Origin: Flavobacterium saliperosum | Lineage (GTDB): Bacteria; Bacteroidota; Bacteroidia; Flavobacteriales; Flavobacteriaceae | Assembly: GCF_900100625.1 (NCBI RefSeq) | Contig: NZ_FMTY01000004.1 | Coordinates: 1-64,000 of the forward strand | Direction: 5' to 3' | Length of the DNA: 64,000 nt | Part shown: piece after piece, positions 4,786 to 49,708 of the stretch | Layout: each line of letters starts with the position of its first letter | Position numbering within the stretch: the first letter of the stretch is position 1 | The notes under the pieces: model-generated | Database searches by the model: none | What the model was told of the DNA's origin: nothing | The model's input: only the letters and a program-made list of their open reading frames with translations | Position numbers and translations under genes: made by a program

Positions 4786-5418
4786 TTATGGAATATTCAA
4801 ATATTTATGGGTTTGTAAAGATACGCGCCATTTGGGATTATTCATAACATAATCTACAATTAACGGGGTCATTTCCTCTTTTTTGCTCCATTCGGGTTGC
4901 AGGAATAAAATGGCGTTGTCGTTAATTTTTGCCGCCTGTTCTTCGGCAAACTGGAAATCGTGTTTGTTATGGATAATCACTTTTAGTTCGTGTGCGATTT
5001 TATAGGCATCCTCCACCGGAAGTTTTGTTTTCTTGGGGGAAAGACAAAACCAGTCCCAGCTGCCCGTTACGGGATAGGCACCGGAAGTTTCGATATGCAC
5101 ACGAAGATTTTGTTCCTTTAACTTGTTGGTCAACACGGTCATGTCCCATGTTAACGGTTCACCGCCGGTTACCACAACCGTTTCGGCGTATTTTTTGGCA
5201 TTGGCTACGATAATATCGATACTAGTTGGCGGATGCAATTCGGCATTCCAGCTTTCTTTCACATCGCACCAATGGCAACCTACGTCGCAACCGCCGATTC
5301 GGATAAAGTAGGCCGCTGTTCCCGTATGGTAACCCTCGCCCTGAATGGTATAAAACTCCTCCATTAAAGGCAACATTTCGCCTTTTTCAACCGCTATCTG
5401 TATTTCTTTTTTTAACAT
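4786..5418 (-). CDS. queE: 7-carboxy-7-deazaguanine synthase QueE
   Basis: 210 residues, radical SAM enzyme that makes 7-carboxy-7-deazaguanine from 6-carboxytetrahydropterin in the queuosine/preQ0 pathway. The [4Fe-4S] cluster motif is C44-x3-C48-x2-C51 (GGCDVGCHWC), preceded by FYTIQGEG and followed by VVTGGEPLTW, both hallmark QueE blocks. The window also carries queA, a later queuosine gene, at 22-23 kb, but the two are not linked. A promoter-like element lies 20 nt upstream. Confidence 0.93.
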   Translation of the reverse strand: MLKKEIQIAVEKGEMLPLMEEFYTIQGEGYHTGTAAYFIRIGGCDVGCHWCDVKESWNAELHPPTSIDIIVANAKKYAETVVVTGGEPLTWDMTVLTNKLKEQNLRVHIETSGAYPVTGSWDWFCLSPKKTKLPVEDAYKIAHELKVIIHNKHDFQFAEEQAAKINDNAILFLQPEWSKKEEMTPLIVDYVMNNPKWRVSLQTHKYLNIP

Positions 5419-5437
5419 CTCGCTTTAAAATAGTCTG

Positions 5438-5445
5438 CAAAGGTA
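5438..5445 (-). promoter_or_regulatory. Promoter -7 element of queE
   Basis: TACCTTTG on the minus strand matches TAnnTTTG and lies 20 nt upstream of the queE start codon. Confidence 0.45.
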
Positions 5446-5515
5446 CGCAATTAGAATATTAGATTTTTAGCTTTTTGAATGCTTCGATTCCAAAGAAGCG
5501 GAAAATTTCCTTTCC

Positions 5516-5628
5516 AGCCCCGATGGGAGTGGAAATCCTGGCTTGAGAGATTGTCGTGCAAGCTTTCAAGACAGATTGCAACGGACAGCGGGAACATGGT
5601 TTGCAGGAATTCCCGAACCTTTCGCTCC
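5516..5628 (+). repeat. Dispersed repeat, copy 2 (apparently complete)
   Basis: Begins AGCCCCGATGGGAGTGGAAA and ends CGAACCTTTCGCTCC, with an internal GATTGCAACGGACAGCGGGAA core shared with copy 1. It sits between the queE promoter and the terminator of the TPR gene. On the transcript of the minus-strand TPR gene it would lie after the terminator. A degenerate partial copy of the 5' end (AGAAGCGGAAAATTTCC) precedes it at about 5494-5512. Confidence 0.65.
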
Positions 5629-42692: not shown

Positions 42693-42749
42693 AAAAAAAA
42701 ATAAAAAGTTATCCGGAAATACAGAGAGAATATCTAAAAAATATTCTTT

Positions 42750-42850
42750 GTTATCTATACCGTCCAAAGACGAGTTAGAATGTAGCACCTTTCCTTGATG
42801 GAGGTTGCTAAGCTTTCATTGGGTCTATTCCCTCCAGCTTTCGTGATAAC
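42750..42850 (-). promoter_or_regulatory. SAM-I riboswitch (S-box) of the metH-metH-metF operon
   Basis: On the minus strand the sequence carries all S-box hallmarks: P1 GTTATC / GATAAC, GCTGGAGGGAATAGACCCAA, ATGAAAGCTTAGCAACC, GGAAAGGTGCTACATTC and a P4 hairpin CGTC-TTTG-GACG. SAM binding should switch off the operon. The expression platform is not clear: the next hairpin is an AT-rich stem (AGAATAT / ATATTCT), a second GATAAC copy is followed by a T-rich run, and the repeat copy 3 hairpin follows. Confidence 0.93.
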
Positions 42851-42874
42851 GATTCAGTGTGTGTATGAACGTTG

Positions 42875-42991: not shown

Positions 42992-44164
42992 CTACCCCAA
43001 AGCCTGTTGCAAATCATTGATTACATCCTGAACGGTTTCCAAGCCTACGGAAACGCGCACCAGTCCGTCCGTGATGCTTACCGCCAGACGTTCTTCTTCC
43101 GATAGTTTGCTGTGTGTGGTGGAGGCCGGATGCGTAACAATCGTTCGTGTATCGCCTAAATTGGCCGAAAGCGAGCAAAGTTGAATCTTATCCAAGAACT
43201 TTCTCCCGGATTCGATACCGCCTTTAATTTCAAACGCCACGATGTTTCCGCCCAAACGCATTTGTTTTTTGGCGATTTCATATTGCGGATGTGATTTTAA
43301 AAACGGGTATTTTACGGTATTCACATTCGGATGATTCTCCAGAAATTCGGCTACTTTTAACGCATTTTCACAGTGTTTTTCCACGCGAACCGGCAGGGTT
43401 TCCAAACTTTTGGATAATACCCATGCATTGAACGGCGACAAGGCTGGACCGGTGTTTCTTGAAAACAGATAAATTTCACGAATCAAATCTTCGCGACCCA
43501 CCGTGATTCCACCCAAAACCCTTCCTTGTCCGTCGATTAGTTTCGTGGCGGAATGCACTACCAAATCGGCACCAAAAGCAATCGGATTCTGAAGGTACGG
43601 TGTGGCGAAGCAGTTGTCGACAATTAAAATCAGGTTGTGTTTTTTGGCAATTTGCCCCAACAGTTCCAAATCAATGATATCAACCGCCGGATTCGTAGGC
43701 GATTCCGCAAAAAGGATTTTAGTATTGGGTTGTATAAAATCCTCAATCGTTTCCGGCTTGTTGATATCGAAATAACTTGTGGTGATGTTCCACTTCGGAA
43801 AATATTTGGTAAACAAGGTATGTGTCGACCCGAAAACACTTCCCACCGATACGATATGGTTGCCCGATTCCAGCAACGCCGCGAAAGTGGAATAGACAGC
43901 CGCCATTCCCGTAGCAAAGGCATAACCGGCTTCGGCACCTTCCATCTTGCAGATTTTTTCCACCAACTCCGAGGTGTTCGGATTGGTGAAACGACTGTAA
44001 ATGTTGCGCTGTTTTTCTTCCGTGAACGATGCTCGCATGTCTTCGGCATCGTCAAAAACGAAACTGGAGGTTAAATAAAGCGGAACGGAATGCTCCAGAT
44101 ATTGGGAACGCTCGGTTTGGGTGCGGATGGCTTGGGTTTCGAAGCCGAATTGGGAATTGCTCAT
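42992..44164 (-). CDS. metZ: O-acyl-homoserine sulfhydrylase / trans-sulfuration enzyme
   Basis: 390 residues from MSNSQFGFETQAIRTQ; the frame opens 11 codons earlier. PLP-dependent Cys/Met metabolism enzyme: YSRFTNPNTSELVEKICKMEGAEA, SVGSVFGSTHTLF, the PLP lysine in VVHSATKLIDGQGRVLGG and TRTIVTHPASTTHSKL at the C-terminus. It resembles the MetZ group that joins O-acetyl- or O-succinylhomoserine with sulfide to give homocysteine directly; with MetX next door, O-acetylhomoserine is the likely substrate. Third gene of the metX-thrA-metZ unit under the leader peptide array. Confidence 0.88.
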   Translation of the reverse strand: MSNSQFGFETQAIRTQTERSQYLEHSVPLYLTSSFVFDDAEDMRASFTEEKQRNIYSRFTNPNTSELVEKICKMEGAEAGYAFATGMAAVYSTFAALLESGNHIVSVGSVFGSTHTLFTKYFPKWNITTSYFDINKPETIEDFIQPNTKILFAESPTNPAVDIIDLELLGQIAKKHNLILIVDNCFATPYLQNPIAFGADLVVHSATKLIDGQGRVLGGITVGREDLIREIYLFSRNTGPALSPFNAWVLSKSLETLPVRVEKHCENALKVAEFLENHPNVNTVKYPFLKSHPQYEIAKKQMRLGGNIVAFEIKGGIESGRKFLDKIQLCSLSANLGDTRTIVTHPASTTHSKLSEEERLAVSITDGLVRVSVGLETVQDVINDLQQALG

Positions 44165-44248
44165 TTTTTTTTTATTTTTTTGAAACATATAAGTCATATA
44201 AGGATATGCAAGACCGTAAAACTCATATGGCTTATTATGGTTAATTAA

Positions 44249-46666
44249 TTATTTACTTTTTTCTGCCAGACGTAAAATATCTCCAAAAACTCCACGTGCA
44301 GTTACGGCTGCACCGGCTCCGGCGCCTTGAATTACGATGGGATGTTCTCCGTAGGATTCGGTATAGATTTCAAAAATGGAATCGGAACCTTTGAGTTGTC
44401 CCAGCGAACTTTCTTTCGGAACAGAAACCAAGCTCACTTCAAGCGTTGCTCCGTTTTCTACCGACAAATCGCCGGACAAATCGCCCACATAACGCAACAC
44501 GTGGTTTTCTGCCTGATTGTTTTTGATGTCCTGATAAATCGGATTGAACGCTTCCAGTCGGGCAAGGAAATCGGAAACACTACCTTCTCTTAGGTTTTCG
44601 GGGATCAGGTTTTGGATTTTCACTTCGGAGAATTCGTTACTTAAATCCAATTCGCGGGCCAAAATCAATAATTTCCGGCCGACGTCGTTTCCGTTTAAGT
44701 CTTCGCGCGGATCCGGTTCGGTAAACCCTTTTTCAATCGCTTCGTTTAACACGTCGCTGAAATTCTTATCGAAAGCGGAAAACGTATTGAACAGGTAACT
44801 CAGCGTTCCCGAGAAAACTCCACGTATTCTTGTGATGTTTTCACCGGAATGATGCAGCAAACGGATTGTGTCAATTAACGGCAATCCCGCGCCCACATTG
44901 GTTTCGTACAAATAATTCTTTTGATAGAAATTAAGATTTTCGCGTAGGTTTTTATAGAAACTGAATTCTTTGGTATTGGCGATTTTATTCGCGGAAACCA
45001 AGTCGAATCCGTTTTTAATCAGTTCGACATAATTGGCTACAAAGTCTTTGTTTGCCGTGGCATCAATTGCGATTAAATTCCCTAAATGATGTTCTTTTGC
45101 CGCTTTCAGAATTTCTTCCACAGATGATTTATGAGAGGAACTTTCCAATTCCGACTGCCATGCTTTGGAAACTCCTTTGGCATCGAAAATAAACTGACGG
45201 GAATTCGCAATCGCTACGATATTCAGTTCGATTCCTTTTCGCTGAATAATGTTTTCGCGGGTTTCCAGCAATTGATTGATCAGCGTTTTCCCAACGGTTC
45301 CATGTCCGAAAATAACCAAATTCACTTTTTTGGTGATGCCGAAGATTTCGCTGTGAATGACATTCAGCGCCTTTTTAAGTTGGACTCTTTCCATCACCAG
45401 ACTCACGTTCTTTCCGGTTATGGTATTATTGAATAAAATCGGTACAATCTGATTGCGGATTAAGGCATCATAAGGTTTGTTGAACGTGGCCAATTCCTGT
45501 CCGATAATGGAAATTACCGACACATTTTCCGTTAGATACACACTGCTTACATCGTGCGTGTAGAAATCCAATTCGAATTCGGCTTCAATAGCATCTTTTG
45601 CTTTTTGAGCGTCTTTTGCATCAACAACCAAACCGATACCGCGCTCGGAAGACCCTTGCGAAATGATGCTCACACTGATATTATTCTGAGCCAAAACCCT
45701 GAAAATTCGCGCGTCAATTCCCGGTTTTCCCAACAGACCTCGGCCTTCCAGATTCACCAATGTTACATTCTCCAGCACCGAAAGCGATTTGATGCCTTTA
45801 CGTGAATTTTCGGAACTGATTAAGGTTCCGTTGTGCGTATGGTTGAAGGTATTTAAAATTCGGAGCGGAATTTTCTTTTCGATAAGCGGAATGATGGTTT
45901 TCGCGTGAAGAATCGTGGCGCCGAAAGTGGCAATTTCATTAGCTTCTTCGAAAGAAAGCTGGTCTATTTTTTTGGCATCAGGCACCAAATCCGGATTGGC
46001 GGTGAAGATGCCGTCCACATGGGTAAAGCTTTGCAGTTCTTCGGCATCGAGGTAATTGGCCAATAAGGAAGCGGTGAAATTGCTCCCGTTTCGACCCAGC
46101 GTCGTGGTTTCTCCATCGGTACTGGAAGCGATAAATCCGGTTACGACATTTACGGTGGTGCCGTTATGCGAAGAAAAGTAATTCTGAACGTTTTTTCGGG
46201 AAATCACATCCACTGGTTGGGCATTTCCGAATTTCGCATCGGTCTTAATCAGTTGGCGGGTATCGGAAAAATTGGCGTTGACACCTTTTTCTTTTAAGGC
46301 TTGCGTGACCACTTTCCCGGAAATCACTTCCCCTTGCGCCAATACGTTGTCCTTTATTTTCTTGCTGTAATCGCCTAAAAGTGCGACCCCTTCAAATAGT
46401 TTTTCCAATAAACCGAATTCTGAAGACAAATCTACCGCTGAATTTCCTTTCTGATAGGTTTTGAAATTTTCCAACTGCACCTGATAAACTCCGTTTTTCT
46501 TCGCTTTTTCCAGAATCTCTTCCAGTTCATCGGTCGCATTTCCGATGGCAGAAACCACTACCGCAAACTTTTCCTGTTGCTTGACCTTATCCAGAATAAT
46601 GTTGATTGCTTTGTCGAAACCGTCGCCGTAAGCCAACGATTTTCCACCGAATTTTAAAATTTTCAT
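44249..46666 (-). CDS. thrA: Bifunctional aspartokinase / homoserine dehydrogenase
   Basis: 805 residues. N-terminal aspartokinase (MKILKFGGKSLAYGDG; TLGRNGSNFTASLL), two ACT domains around residues 305-460 (LVNLEGRGLLGKPG; ISIIGQELATF), and a homoserine dehydrogenase from about 465 (LVIFGHGTVGKTLINQLLETRE; NVGAGLPLIDTIR; FTEPDPREDLNGNDVGRKLLILARE). It supplies homoserine for MetX. The start overlaps the end of metX by 4 nt (ATGA), so they are translationally coupled. Confidence 0.94.
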   Translation of the reverse strand: MKILKFGGKSLAYGDGFDKAINIILDKVKQQEKFAVVVSAIGNATDELEEILEKAKKNGVYQVQLENFKTYQKGNSAVDLSSEFGLLEKLFEGVALLGDYSKKIKDNVLAQGEVISGKVVTQALKEKGVNANFSDTRQLIKTDAKFGNAQPVDVISRKNVQNYFSSHNGTTVNVVTGFIASSTDGETTTLGRNGSNFTASLLANYLDAEELQSFTHVDGIFTANPDLVPDAKKIDQLSFEEANEIATFGATILHAKTIIPLIEKKIPLRILNTFNHTHNGTLISSENSRKGIKSLSVLENVTLVNLEGRGLLGKPGIDARIFRVLAQNNISVSIISQGSSERGIGLVVDAKDAQKAKDAIEAEFELDFYTHDVSSVYLTENVSVISIIGQELATFNKPYDALIRNQIVPILFNNTITGKNVSLVMERVQLKKALNVIHSEIFGITKKVNLVIFGHGTVGKTLINQLLETRENIIQRKGIELNIVAIANSRQFIFDAKGVSKAWQSELESSSHKSSVEEILKAAKEHHLGNLIAIDATANKDFVANYVELIKNGFDLVSANKIANTKEFSFYKNLRENLNFYQKNYLYETNVGAGLPLIDTIRLLHHSGENITRIRGVFSGTLSYLFNTFSAFDKNFSDVLNEAIEKGFTEPDPREDLNGNDVGRKLLILARELDLSNEFSEVKIQNLIPENLREGSVSDFLARLEAFNPIYQDIKNNQAENHVLRYVGDLSGDLSVENGATLEVSLVSVPKESSLGQLKGSDSIFEIYTESYGEHPIVIQGAGAGAAVTARGVFGDILRLAEKSK

Positions 46667-47667
46667 GCTTGTTTTGTTTTTAGTTTAGTTGTTTTAAATA
46701 TGTTTTTGAGAATAGTGTTCAATTGTTCAAACTCGATTAAAAAAGCGTCGTGGCCGTGAATCGAATTTATTTCGCTATAAGCCACATTCTGCGTTACCCT
46801 TTTAAGAATTTCGTAGGTTTCGCGGTTTTCATCGGCAGTGAAAAAATAATCGGAATTCACGGCGACCAGATGAATATCGGCCGTTGTTTCTTTGGCAAAA
46901 GCCAAAAACCGACCGCAATTTGTTGTTTCTCCGATAGTTTTCAGCAGGTGATTCATCAGTTTGTAGGCTGCCAATTCAAAACGGCTTTCCAGTTTCTTTC
47001 CGTGGTGCAGCAGCCAGCTTTCAATCTGATACAAGTCATCATTTTCATTTTCATTTTTACTTCGGTTGAATTTGGCTTTCAGCGATTCCGGTGTGCGGTA
47101 CAACAACATCGCGTGCAATCTTGCGTCGTGAATGGGAGCAGAAGAATTATTCAGAATCTGATCCTGTACCAAAACATTGGCAATCAACCAATCGGAGGCT
47201 TTCCAGTCGGAGGCAATCGGAATGAGATGCTGTATGTTTTTCGGTTGTAAAAAGGCCATTTCCCAGGCAATTGCACCACCCAAACTTCCGCCGATAGCTG
47301 CAAAAAGCTGTTTTACATTTAAGGAATAAAGCCCTTCCCAGAAAAGTCTGGCCACATCTTTGGTTGTAAAATCCTTGTAATTCGGAATCAGATTTTCGGA
47401 ATTGCCATCGAAACCATTCCCGGGCACATTAAAGGCAATCACGGTATATACTTCGGTGTCGATGGTTTTATTTTCCCCGATCAAGTTCTTCCACCAGCCG
47501 TTTTTTCCGGTTACTTCGGAATTTCCGGTTAAGGCATGATTCACCAAAACCACCGGTGCTGTTCCAACCGGCTGTCCGAAAACCTGATAATACAAAGGCA
47601 ACCAACGTTTGTGGGTCGCATTTTGCAATGTGAAATCAAAAATATCTACTCTTTGTAATGCACTCAT
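46663..47667 (-). CDS. metX: Homoserine O-acetyltransferase
   Basis: 334 residues, alpha/beta hydrolase fold. The nucleophile elbow is GGSLGG, with VNHALTGNSEV near the start, the acidic residue in VNSDYFFTADENRE and the His in SIHGHDAFLIE. It acetylates homoserine with acetyl-CoA at the branch into methionine. First gene of the metX-thrA-metZ unit; two leader-peptide attenuators lie in the 600 nt upstream. Confidence 0.92.
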   Translation of the reverse strand: MSALQRVDIFDFTLQNATHKRWLPLYYQVFGQPVGTAPVVLVNHALTGNSEVTGKNGWWKNLIGENKTIDTEVYTVIAFNVPGNGFDGNSENLIPNYKDFTTKDVARLFWEGLYSLNVKQLFAAIGGSLGGAIAWEMAFLQPKNIQHLIPIASDWKASDWLIANVLVQDQILNNSSAPIHDARLHAMLLYRTPESLKAKFNRSKNENENDDLYQIESWLLHHGKKLESRFELAAYKLMNHLLKTIGETTNCGRFLAFAKETTADIHLVAVNSDYFFTADENRETYEILKRVTQNVAYSEINSIHGHDAFLIEFEQLNTILKNIFKTTKLKTKQA

Positions 47668-47753: not shown

Positions 47754-47789
47754 AAAAGTCCTTTTGGAAGTGTTACCAAAAGGACTTTT
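47754..47789 (-). terminator. Attenuator terminator T4 in front of metX
   Basis: A perfect 14-bp stem AAAAGTCCTTTTGG / CCAAAAGGACTTTT with an 8-nt loop, followed by a T run. The 5' part (TCCTTTTGGTAACA, 47771-47784) can instead pair with TGTTGCTGAAAACGGA at 47821-47836, which overlaps the end of the leader peptide ORF, giving a competing antiterminator. Confidence 0.9.
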
Positions 47790-47824
47790 ACAGTTTGAAC
47801 TATAACCTGAGATTAACTCATCCG
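47771..47824 (-). repeat. 54-nt direct repeat (metX copy)
   Basis: Identical except for one base to 49079-49132. Contains the 5' arm of the terminator, the antiterminator partner, and two small hairpins (TGAG-TTAAT-CTCA and TATAGTT-CA-AACTGTA). Confidence 0.9.
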
Positions 47825-47827
47825 TTT

Positions 47828-47902
47828 TCAGCAACAATAGAGGGAACGACACATGCGCATCATTCTTTTCATATCCATCATTTTCATTGCTGTTGTTTTC
47901 AT
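47828..47902 (-). CDS. Met/Cys-rich leader peptide L4 (proximal to metX)
   Basis: A 24-residue ORF with Met at 1, 6, 8, 9, 11, 14, 15 and 17 (eight of 24) and Cys at 18, 23 and 24. The stop codon lies within TGTTGCTGA, the first arm of the antiterminator. A ribosome stalled on Met codons would leave that arm free; a ribosome at the stop would mask it and let the terminator T4 form. No Shine-Dalgarno is expected in this phylum. Confidence 0.88.
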   Translation of the reverse strand: MKTTAMKMMDMKRMMRMCRSLYCC

Positions 47903-47968
47903 CTGGTTTCTAATTCGGTTGTAAATAATTAAAATTGTAGTTGTGTGATTAGGTTATTCTATTAAAAA

Positions 47969-47991
47969 AACCCCTGCGACATACAGAGGTT
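47969..47991 (-). terminator. Attenuator terminator T3
   Basis: AACCTCTG / CAGGGGTT (one G-U pair) with a 7-nt loop, then seven T. The 5' arm can also pair with CAGGGGTC inside leader L3 (48031-48038), so the same switch logic applies. Confidence 0.85.
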
Positions 47992-48017
47992 TCAGCTTTA
48001 TGTTCTTTTCAGACAGA

Positions 48018-48089
48018 TTAAGCAAAAAAAGACCCCTGCGGAAGTTTCTTCCACATCATGCACATCATAAATTGCGTAATCGTTTTCAT
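48018..48089 (-). CDS. Met/Cys leader peptide L3 (distal, metX unit)
   Basis: A 23-residue ORF carrying Met8-Met9-Cys10-Met11-Met12-Trp13. The antiterminator arm CCGCAGGGGTC lies directly after these codons (codons 17-20). The ORF is preceded by a very good promoter and followed by terminator T3; L4 and T4 then come next on the same transcript. Confidence 0.87.
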   Translation of the reverse strand: MKTITQFMMCMMWKKLPQGSFFA

Positions 48090-48111
48090 TTTGTTGTTTT
48101 TTATTACGTTG

Positions 48112-48142
48112 CAAATTTAGATTAATTTTCTAAATAAACAAA
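48112..48142 (-). promoter_or_regulatory. Promoter of the metX unit
   Basis: TTTG (48139-48142) and TAAATTTG (48112-48119) on the minus strand with a 19-nt spacer: a perfect match to the Bacteroidota consensus TTTG-N19-TAnnTTTG. It is the only clear promoter before both attenuators. Confidence 0.8.
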
Positions 48143-48212
48143 TTAAATAGTTTTTTTTTCTTTATTTTTTAAATTTAAAACTCTTTTGTAGTTATTTATT
48201 CCGTTTATAAAA

Positions 48213-48247
48213 AACCGTCTCCGTCATCAATAAGTCGAGAGACGGTT
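48213..48247 (-). terminator. Terminator of the osmC unit
   Basis: AACCGTCTC / GAGACGGTT stem, with a long loop, followed by six T on the minus strand. Separates the osmC unit from the metX promoter. Confidence 0.8.
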
Positions 48248-48272
48248 TAAAAACAAACAAAAACAACTTGTA

Positions 48273-48746
48273 TCAGGCAGCACCGTGCTGACTGTATTCT
48301 TTGAGCAATGTGAGTACGACCGGAGTAGAATTCATCAGGTTATCACGCAAAGGACATCGCTCTTTGACCTGATCAATCCATTGTTTTAACAGTTCCAACG
48401 GTGCATCCGAAATCGGCTTAACGATGACATCGATTTTTCTGAAACCGGCTCTGGATCGAGTTTGAATCCCTTCTGCCTTTTTGGTCCCGATAGCTATCGG
48501 GACCAATTCACCGATGATTTCAACTTCCACCGACTGCAGTTCGATTCCCAATTCTTCGGCTACCATCAGCCCTACCGCATTAATGCTTCCCGCAAAACCG
48601 GCCAGCAGATAATCCGTCGGACTCGGCCCTGTACCCGATTCACCCGAAACCGAATTACTGATGGTCACCTTGGAATCTGTGGTTTGCACCAAAAACTGAT
48701 TCCCTATCCCTGAAGTCCCTTTTATTGCTATTGTTCTGTTACTCAT
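48273..48746 (-). CDS. OsmC-family protein
   Basis: 157 residues with the OsmC/Ohr fold. GPSPTDYLLAGFAGSINAVG carries the helix that normally holds the first reactive cysteine; here the position is Ser54 (AGSINAVG), while CPLRDNLMN near residue 125 retains the second cysteine region. So a peroxidase role is doubtful. A perfect 26-bp palindrome is embedded in frame at residues 81-89. Lies in the methionine region under its own leader peptide array, so a link to sulfur metabolism is likely, although the activity is unknown. Confidence 0.82.
   Translation of the reverse strand: MSNRTIAIKGTSGIGNQFLVQTTDSKVTISNSVSGESGTGPSPTDYLLAGFAGSINAVGLMVAEELGIELQSVEVEIIGELVPIAIGTKKAEGIQTRSRAGFRKIDVIVKPISDAPLELLKQWIDQVKERCPLRDNLMNSTPVVLTLLKEYSQHGAA
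48481..48506. repeat. Perfect 26-bp palindrome within osmC
   Basis: The 26-bp palindrome has arms TTGGTCCCGATAG and CTATCGGGACCAA. It encodes Leu81 to Lys89 of the OsmC protein in frame. Its centre CCCGATAGCTATCGGG also occurs in repeat copy 3 at 42667-42682, showing a mobile or propagating palindrome. Confidence 0.95.
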
Positions 48747-48771
48747 GTCTCGATTATGTGTACTGTTCTTA

Positions 48772-48948
48772 TTAAATGAAAAGAAATTCGTTTTCTTCGG
48801 AATTGATTTGTAAAATCAGTAATTCGGAAGCGGCAATGGTTTCTTCTTTCACTTCGTTTATTTGGTGTTCCACTGCGATATTGTGTGCGTTCTCTATGGA
48901 TGAAACAATGGATTGTATTCTTCTTATTTTGTTTTTTAAAGCTGTCAT
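48772..48948 (-). CDS. Small 58-residue protein upstream of osmC
   Basis: A 58-residue ORF from ATG at 48948 ending 25 nt before osmC. The composition is that of an amphipathic helix rich in Glu, Ile and Asn (KNKIRRIQSIVSSIENAHNI), with no cysteine and no signal peptide. It is the first real gene after the leader peptides L1 and L2, so it belongs to the same unit as osmC. Not recognised; a true gene is supported by position, length and codon use only. Confidence 0.55.
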   Translation of the reverse strand: MTALKNKIRRIQSIVSSIENAHNIAVEHQINEVKEETIAASELLILQINSEENEFLFI

Positions 48949-49061
48949 GATCTATTTATTTTATTTGATTGAAATTTATTTTAAACGCCCATTAATATAT
49001 TTTCTTCCGGTTGAAGGGCGTTCTTGACGACCTTGGGCAAACAATGTTTTTCGGAAAATAA

Positions 49062-49097
49062 AAAAGCCCTTTCGGATTTGTTACCAAAAGGACTTTT
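49062..49097 (-). terminator. Attenuator terminator T2
   Basis: AAAAGTCCTTTTGG / CCGAAAGGGCTTTT, 14 pairs with two G-U, then a T run. Compared with T4 the 3' arm has two changes (A to G) that keep the stem as G-U pairs. Antiterminator partner TGTTACCGAAACCGGA at 49128-49143. Confidence 0.87.
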
Positions 49098-49132
49098 ACA
49101 GTTTGAACTATAACTTGAGATTAACTCATCCG
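49079..49132 (-). repeat. 54-nt direct repeat (osmC copy)
   Basis: Differs by one base from 47771-47824; see that entry. Confidence 0.9.
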
Positions 49133-49219
49133 GTTTCGGTAACAACAATGGGAATTAGGGCGCATATAATTGCACATAAATCGTTTATTAAACTTTGTAA
49201 TTGCTGTTGTATTTTTCAT
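49121..49219 (-). CDS. Met/Cys leader peptide L2 (proximal, osmC unit)
   Basis: A 32-residue ORF with Met15-Cys16 and Met19, then Cys25-Cys26. Fewer Met codons than L4, but the Cys-Cys pair, the overlap with the antiterminator arm and the terminator T2 are all kept. The ORF ends downstream of the arm because the L4-type stop codon position is lost and translation runs to TAA. Confidence 0.75.
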   Translation of the reverse strand: MKNTTAITKFNKRFMCNYMRPNSHCCYRNRMS

Positions 49220-49266
49220 TTTGTTTTGAACTTGTTTCGAAATATTTTTTAACCGATTTCATAAAA

Positions 49267-49293
49267 AAAGCCCCTGCGGTTGGCAGAGGCTTT
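49267..49293 (-). terminator. Attenuator terminator T1
   Basis: AAAGCCTCTGC / GCAGGGGCTTT (one G-U) with a 5-nt loop, then seven T. The 5' arm can also pair with GCAGAG inside leader L1. Confidence 0.85.
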
Positions 49294-49321
49294 AACTGTA
49301 TATTAAAATTTGACTTTCAAT

Positions 49322-49390
49322 TTAAACAATAGCATGCTCTGCGGAGGTTTTCCACTTAAAATTACACATATATCGCTTAATTGAATTCAT
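49322..49390 (-). CDS. Leader peptide L1 (distal, osmC unit)
   Basis: A 22-residue ORF with Met8-Cys9 and Trp13; layout matches L3 (I..[FY]-Met-Cys...Trp-Lys), but with single Met and Cys codons in place of the Met-Met-Cys-Met-Met run. The antiterminator arm GCAGAG lies at codons 17-18. It seems a weakened copy of L3 or a more Cys-directed sensor. Confidence 0.72.
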   Translation of the reverse strand: MNSIKRYMCNFKWKTSAEHAIV

Positions 49391-49411
49391 TTTTTCTCTT
49401 ATTTGTTGATG

Positions 49412-49443
49412 CAAAATTGAGGACTAATTTCGAACTAACCAAA
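49412..49443 (-). promoter_or_regulatory. Promoter of the osmC unit
   Basis: TTTG at 49440-49443 and CAATTTTG at 49412-49419 with a 20-nt spacer; the first base of the -7 deviates from TA. Confidence 0.5.
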
Positions 49444-49579: not shown

Positions 49580-49591
49580 CAAACGAAAACC

Positions 49592-49645
49592 AGAGGAAAA
49601 ATTTGAACTGATTGCAACCTCATTAAAAAATGCTAAAGCAGTAAC
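49592..49645 (+). promoter_or_regulatory. SAM-II-like riboswitch of metK
   Basis: P1 GAGG / CCTC encloses the loop ATTTGAACTGATTGCAA, followed by ATTAAAAAATGCTAAAGCAG. This matches the SAM-II layout (loop ending TTGCAA, then the TAAA-(T)GCTAAA segment). ACTG in the loop pairs with CAGT downstream to give the pseudoknot. Lies 64 nt before the metK ATG. Identification rests on motif recall; a covariance model would settle it. Confidence 0.72.
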
Positions 49646-49708
49646 TACTACTCCTTTAGGCATTCCCTGCAATTATTTTTCCTCGCTTAAATTTAAAACA
49701 ATTTAATT

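Follow-up and report, generated by a model that had tools for sequence, protein, structure and literature searches.

Layout of the two tandem units

The window, a stretch of 64,000 nucleotides (nt) from Flavobacterium saliperosum (contig NZ_FMTY01000004.1, positions 1 to 64,000), contains two neighbouring operons, one with an osmC-like gene and one with metX, thrA and metZ, and each is preceded by two short open reading frames (ORFs) that form putative methionine/cysteine (Met/Cys) leader-peptide attenuators. In a first-pass annotation the region 47754 to 49443 had been described as four ORFs (L1 to L4), each with an intrinsic terminator (T1 to T4) and an arm able to pair with the 5' side of that terminator. 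All of these parts were located on the minus strand, in the order L1-T1-L2-T2-58-amino-acid (aa) ORF-osmC, an intergenic hairpin, and L3-T3-L4-T4-metX-thrA-metZ. The proposed layout, a promoter followed by two leader-terminator units and given twice, stands in its order; its promoters are predictions only, as TAAATTTG was seen before L3 and a weaker look-alike (by eye) before L1. The features are as follows.

49322..49390, minus strand: L1 leader ORF, MNSIKRYMCNFKWKTSAEHAIV, present in 6/6 species of the close clade (see below)
49337..49342, minus strand: A arm core of L1, GCAGAG, antiterminator strand within the ORF
49267..49293, minus strand: T1, predicted intrinsic terminator
49121..49219, minus strand: L2 leader ORF, MKNTTAITKFNKRFMCNYMRPNSHCCYRNRMS
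49127..49146, minus strand: A arm of L2, GTTGTTACCGAAACCGGATG
49097..49127, minus strand: 31-nt conserved element between the L2 arm and T2
49062..49097, minus strand: T2, predicted intrinsic terminator
48772..48948, minus strand: 58-aa ORF, first gene past T2, no Pfam or NCBIfam match
48273..48746, minus strand: osmC-like gene, PF02566 above cut-off
48112..48119, minus strand: predicted promoter element upstream of L3, TAAATTTG
48018..48089, minus strand: L3 leader ORF, MKTITQFMMCMMWKKLPQGSFFA
48031..48040, minus strand: A arm of L3, CGCAGGGGTC
47969..47991, minus strand: T3, predicted intrinsic terminator
47828..47902, minus strand: L4 leader ORF, MKTTAMKMMDMKRMMRMCRSLYCC
47819..47837, minus strand: A arm of L4, TTGTTGCTGAAAACGGATG, extending beyond the stop codon
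47789..47819, minus strand: 31-nt conserved element between the L4 arm and T4
47754..47789, minus strand: T4, predicted intrinsic terminator
46663..47667, minus strand: metX-like gene (homoserine O-acetyltransferase), NCBIfam MetX models best, below cut-off
44249..46666, minus strand: thrA (aspartate kinase/homoserine dehydrogenase), NF006959 above cut-off
42992..44197, minus strand: metZ-like gene (Cys/Met pyridoxal phosphate enzyme), PF01053 above cut-off, best NCBIfam model just under cut-off

L1-T1 and L3-T3 share one design, in which the ORF carries GCAGRG close to its end (A), followed by CCTCTG (B, the 5' arm of the terminator) and CAGGGG (C, the 3' arm), so that A and C compete for B. 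In L2-T2 and L4-T4, which are 88-89 % identical across 96-99 nt, an arm near TGTTACC (TGTTGCT in L4) at the ORF end can pair with TCCTTTTGGTAACA in the terminator. The pair of Cys codons that ends L2 and L4 sits in or beside this arm, and these codons are therefore likely structural and not sensors. The leader of the osmC operon folds better than its shuffles (z -3.8; 0/100 equally good), as does that of the metX operon (z -2.9; 1/100). When the arm-terminator duplexes were compared with shuffles, p values of 0.025 (L1), 0.005 (L2), 0.025 (L3) and 0.025 (L4) were obtained.

Occurrence in Flavobacterium and beyond

The close clade consists of the window's genome, F. limnosediminis, F. sp. SM15, F. 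suncheonense, F. cauense and F. enshiense; the five relatives were taken from a contig scan with the 21-base core of the 31-nt element, in which the window's own genome was possibly omitted. L1-T1-L2-T2 lies upstream of the osmC operon in all six species. Upstream of the metX operon, L3-T3-L4-T4 was found in three of the six (the window's genome, SM15 and F. cauense). The second unit is missing from this position in F. limnosediminis and F. enshiense, which carry L3-T3, and F. suncheonense lacks both units. Eleven of 18 other Flavobacterium metX loci inspected carry (by eye) a sequence upstream that resembles the S-adenosylmethionine (SAM) riboswitch SAM-I, and the remaining seven have neither SAM-I nor leader within 600 nt upstream (less at contig ends), in most cases because metX is immediately preceded by another gene.

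A pattern of the arms only (GCAGRG, spacer, CCTCTG, loop, CAGRGG), with no peptide criterion, was searched in 249 Flavobacteriaceae genomes and gave 17 matches in 15 genomes; the reversed pattern gave none among the matches listed. A T-rich tail follows 10 of the 17, the weakest being that of genome G143, CTCTTTTATTT. In all ten tailed matches (L1 and L3 of the window and eight from other genomes) a Met/Cys-rich ORF ends over the A arm, and the eight from other genomes stand before metY (5), metX (2) and cysE-cysK-like genes (1), with metY and metX named by likeness to protein P0001 and to the window's gene, respectively. Two of the seven matches without a T-rich tail were checked by script and have no leader ORF.

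A covariance model (R1), built from 29 L1-type leaders, was run on the same 249 genomes. It gave 24 matches of at least 50 bits, of which 22 are leaders (18 already in the seed set); the four new ones are in G007, G021, G592 and a second locus of G016. On a phylum draw of 238 genomes, a match of at least 50 bits was found in 11 of 14 Flavobacterium genomes among the matches listed. Tallies at an E-value of 0.01 (208/249 and 90/238 genomes) were not used because the inspected matches below about 45 bits were mostly terminators after genes. Further contexts of R1 matches are a cysE-like gene (G439) and osmC in another genus (G610, 49.9 bits). In three Flavobacterium genomes a leader lies upstream of a TonB-dependent receptor gene (loci L244, L243 and L246), which was named by a protein-family search of L244 in the case of G225 and by likeness in G760 and G778.

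When the order of the ORFs was recorded, a second Met/Cys ORF came after the L1-type ORF at 27 of 42 loci, and the L1-type ORF stood alone at the other 15; this count omits weak leaders in G773, G751 and G022 and second matches in G746, G439 and G760. Attenuators in series had been called unusual in the first-pass annotation, and this did not hold, since with 27 of 42 loci in tandem serial leaders are common in the family. A terminator was found by script after the second ORF in 26 of the 27 tandem loci, with an arm duplex p of 0.05 or lower in 15 of those 26. Conservation in related genomes, on which the annotation had made its proposal depend, was thus observed: ORFs, arms and tandem order are kept and the arms covary. 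The idea of a feature confined to the window was dropped, as the arms-based and model searches recovered a family. A blastn search with the L4/T4 block gave no match in 148 other family genomes, a misleading outcome.

Only single cases were found outside Flavobacteriaceae (G174, G795 and G836). In G836, which is outside the class, a Met/Cys leader and an ORF ending CCCCC lie upstream of a sulfate-binding protein gene (L251, 1473-1808); the leader's score, 43.6 bits, falls where the model also returns noise, and one pattern and one protein search of 76 genomes found no second member in the family of G836. In G878, also outside the class, a His-rich ORF (peptide by eye) with a similar arm and terminator layout lies upstream of hisG (L250, reverse strand, about 1490-1640).

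Arm pairing and covariation

When 40 L1-type leaders were aligned, the six A:B pairs were formed in 92.0 % of cells, compared with 23-63 % when the strands were slid by 1-3 columns. Eleven cells were changed on both sides, and none of 500 shuffles equalled both measures. B:C pairing in these leaders was 98.3 % (29 leaders). Among 18 L2-type leaders A:B was formed in 95.6 % of cells (at most 59 % when slid) and B:C in 97.5 %, with three A:B cells changed on both sides, a count as high in 13 of 500 shuffles. The rows are not independent because one clade supplies many of them, namely 11 of the 40 L1-type and 9 of the 18 L2-type rows from the six Flavobacterium species. A, B and C change together, as GCAGAG/CTCTG/CAGAGG becomes GCAGCG/CGCTG/CAGCGG in five genomes of four genera, GCAAGG/CCCTTG/CAAGGG in G021 and GTAGGG/CCTCTA/TAGAGG in G648. 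Of the leaders scored, 28 of 40 L1-type and 15 of 26 L2-type have a duplex p of 0.05 or lower. Terminator and antiterminator are therefore predicted to be mutually exclusive.

These data also bear on the possibility of functional small proteins encoded by the short ORFs, with the hairpins as ordinary terminators between these genes. Recurring peptide ends such as SAEDSIV would fit such proteins. However, the codons of the recurring end are those of the A arm and covary with the terminator, and neither the location before Met/Cys genes nor the exclusion of SAM-I at metY (see below) would be explained, so that we regard this possibility as extremely improbable.

Codon content and stop position

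The short ORFs are rich in codons for the amino acid of the operon. Met and Cys together make up 137 of 450 codons before the arm in 30 L1-type leaders and 144 of 464 in 21 L2-type leaders, an enrichment that is biased as part of the leaders were picked by eye on Met/Cys content. Fairer tests are given by the arms-only matches (8/8 tailed leaders of other genomes) and by the fixed count at metY described below.

In L1-type leaders the last Met/Cys codon typically lies about 15 nt ahead of the A core, and the stop codon lies 18-19 nt past it in 24 of 30; the spacing is less regular in the L2-type. The ribosome footprint reaches about 12-13 nt beyond the A-site codon and extends 15 nt back from the P site. 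With this spacing and footprint, a stalled ribosome would free A and a terminating one would cover it, and stall site and stop are thus positioned to free or cover the antiterminator strand. When the RNA was folded before C exists, with a ribosome placed at the median Met/Cys codon, A:B was predicted in 49 of 49 scored leaders (68 collected), a partly circular test because A had been picked as the best duplex and a terminating ribosome masks A by construction.

Genome G016 carries leaders at two pathways. Those of metY (MRFENKNMMCSMMCKEIYAKGTIV and MNNNLGYNTYYFMEMCMMMQIMQMYYPD) contain Met and Cys, and those upstream of a cysE-like gene (its protein below NCBIfam cut-offs) and a cysK-like gene (MNYNKSNNCCKTLCCNNAEVYYIY and MNNTLIIENTNCCKVQTICCTCCWCPKVLCVM) contain Cys and lack inner Met ahead of the arm. 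The codons of this one genome thus switch with the pathway, as attenuation predicts. The rule is not strict because the leader of the cysE-like gene of G439 is mixed Met/Cys.

Leaders and SAM-I at metY

metY was found with P0001, the metY product of the leader-bearing genome G590, in 170 of 249 family genomes at an E-value of 1e-100. Upstream regions were taken for 110 of the 170 loci, mainly from the top of the match list, and 109 could be oriented. A SAM-I motif is present in 94 of the 109, and Rfam confirmed it in all 20 loci checked (19 of the 94 and the unoriented locus). Leaders lie at 10 of the 15 loci without SAM-I, among them the G590 locus, and seven of the ten are tandem (including L135). 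When short ORFs having 5 or more Met/Cys within 12 residues were counted within 600 nt upstream of metY, they were found at 10 of 15 loci without SAM-I and at 0 of 94 with SAM-I (Fisher p 7e-11); on the opposite strand the maximum was 3 Met/Cys across all 109 loci. The exclusion between leader and SAM-I holds at metY and is not absolute at other genes.

A nascent Met/Cys-rich peptide might itself be the sensor, if a metal that binds thiols or thioethers (e.g. copper) or oxidation arrested the ribosome and the same RNA switch followed. Copper is bound by Met and Cys side chains and OsmC proteins are often peroxide-related, which would suit such a sensor, and RNA evidence alone cannot tell codon from residue. 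Nevertheless, we consider it very unlikely, since most of the named targets are Met/Cys synthesis genes, leaders at metY were seen only where SAM-I is absent, and the residues in G016 shift from Met/Cys to Cys with the pathway.

The 31-nt element and searches for known RNAs

The 31-nt element was found in eight copies in 5 of 398 Flavobacterium genomes, all with zero mismatches although three were permitted, and within the clade it was seen in second units only. In nine clade copies from six species, 29 of its 31 columns are invariant, compared with 20 of 92 in the preceding ORF and 26 of 43 downstream. Neither pairing alone nor coding accounts for this conservation, since L4 of the window stops ahead of the element. 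From A to B, a long A:B helix enclosing two hairpins (a predicted three-way junction) was obtained in all nine clade copies. In G127 the shape recurs and its hairpins are altered; it was not obtained in G356, G111 and G590.

Rfam gave no family at gathering score in the region 47754-49443; four matches at E-values up to 1 were all far below it. The amino-acid leader families did not reach gathering score (leu-phe_leader and Phe_leader at E 0.62), SAM-I and SAM-II had matches only outside the region, and no T-box was among the Rfam matches within it. A riboswitch or other known RNA was dropped as a candidate on this result.

The element and its predicted junction are what would be expected if the RNA itself were the sensor (as a riboswitch, a T-box or a leader that binds a protein), with incidental ORFs. 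This explanation is highly improbable in our view, as no Rfam family reached gathering score in the region, the element was seen only in second units, and the Met/Cys codons and the distance to the stop are conserved. A combination of both principles is unlikely, if less so: the second unit (L2 or L4) may be a hybrid gate, in which the invariant three-way junction acts as an antiterminator that takes a translation-independent input (ligand or protein). If so, one 5' region would join two ribosome-stall sensors and an RNA sensor in series.

Proposed mechanism

We propose that the units are ribosome-mediated transcription attenuators that sense charged tRNA-Met and/or tRNA-Cys, a reading drawn from sequence comparison to which we assign a probability of roughly 0.86. 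The first-pass annotation had arrived at this sensing by analogy with classical ribosome-mediated attenuation, and its reading gains support from the many genera in which similar leaders precede Met/Cys genes. Under shortage of Met or Cys, a ribosome translating the leader would halt at the Met/Cys codons (typically about 15 nt ahead of the A arm in L1-type leaders), A would stay free and pair with B, the B:C terminator would be blocked and RNA polymerase would read through. If both amino acids are abundant, translation would proceed to the stop codon, the ribosome there would cover A, B:C would form and transcription would terminate. With two units under one promoter, the probabilities of read-through would multiply, so that the off state would be tighter and the response steeper.

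Several observations weigh against this proposal. Only one L2-type A:B pair is doubly changed (281 of 500 shuffles match), the count of pair types in L1-type leaders is not above shuffles (141 of 500), and 15 of 40 L1-type leaders have a mismatch at the last pair. The duplex p exceeds 0.05 in 12 of 40 L1-type and 11 of 26 L2-type leaders (0.575 for the second unit of G610), and no terminator was found by script for 2 of 68 leaders (G795 and G100_L2). Ribosome-free folds predict the antiterminator in some leaders and not in others. As for the codons, osmC-operon leaders of the clade have only 2-5 Met/Cys codons ahead of the arm, and L1-type peptides often contain Trp (16 of 450 codons). With regard to gene context, some leaders sit upstream of a TonB-dependent receptor without known substrate, and five metY loci have neither SAM-I nor leaders (SAM-II before metY in one, a metK-metY operon with SAM-II in two and nothing recognised in two). 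Finally, metX of G143 carries a leader, a terminator and then SAM-I (L053, reverse strand, 1452-1518; SAM-I at 1263-1362).

If the proposal is true, Met (with Cys) joins the amino acids sensed by ribosome-mediated attenuation, and two attenuators in series are a recurrent natural design. In front of a single gene, two unrelated RNA devices, SAM-I and leader peptides, would then stand as substitutes for each other, and the choice of SAM or charged tRNA as the signal would become testable. A covariance model and a clade with named species are further products of the analysis.

Relation to known systems

The mechanism is best read as one of a known kind, with Met/Cys specificity, serial design and exchange with SAM-I as the new parts. 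Classical leader-peptide attenuators control thr, his, leu, ilv, phe and trp operons of Proteobacteria. The present units resemble them in the short ORF with codons of the pathway, the alternative antiterminator and terminator, and the position upstream of the cognate operon. They differ in Met/Cys specificity, in the frequent occurrence of two units in series, in a three-strand A:B:C arrangement with A inside the ORF, and in that no Rfam leader family reached gathering score (two far below).

SAM-I (S-box, RF00162) precedes the same genes, metY and metX, in relatives. This RNA is unrelated to the leaders. None of the 10 metY loci with leaders carries it, and it occurs together with a leader at the G143 metX locus.

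The following comparisons refer to the available parts of each paper. For cys operons of Actinobacteria, Cys-rich leader peptides with no conserved terminator hairpin have been described and Rho was suggested, and no conserved RNA structures were reported upstream of Met operons (PMC1262725). A short ORF with runs of Cys codons before sulfur amino-acid genes is common to both systems; unlike the Actinobacteria leaders, those described here have predicted intrinsic terminators, covarying antiterminators and mostly Met plus Cys. In F. psychrophilum, strong clues for leader-peptide attenuation were given for amino-acid operons, and the structured 5' elements of pheA and hisG are conserved in other genera (PMC9723704). 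This system shares with ours the genus, the amino-acid operons and a short peptide governing elongation; the amino acid of the attenuators is not named in that account, and "methionine" is absent from its main text (PMC9723704). Short ORFs in long 5' untranslated regions of Bacteroides thetaiotaomicron have been called reminiscent of attenuating leader peptides; the example given is a hypothetical protein gene, with no Met/Cys case in the available text (PMC7366714). The rimP leader has a second terminator in tandem (PMC2965389). No Met leader peptide case is contained in the available parts of PMC7366714, PMC2965389 and PMC3766115. The first-pass annotation knew of none of this kind from Bacteroidota, and no Met leader peptide turned up in our literature search, which did not extend to the supplement of PMC9723704 or to most subscription papers.

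Other features

The 58-aa ORF, which ends ENEFLFI, occurs in three consecutive copies (58, 58 and 61 aa) in F. enshiense (L047, reverse strand, 4893-5490), and a 56-aa look-alike lies upstream of metY in G127. SAM-I is present at 42748-42852, after metZ and before metH, and SAM-II at 49587-49646, before a divergent metK (metK and metH named from translations); three kinds of Met/SAM-related RNA control lie inside 7 kb of the window. A Flavo-1 RNA (Rfam RF01705) was found at 5512-5599.

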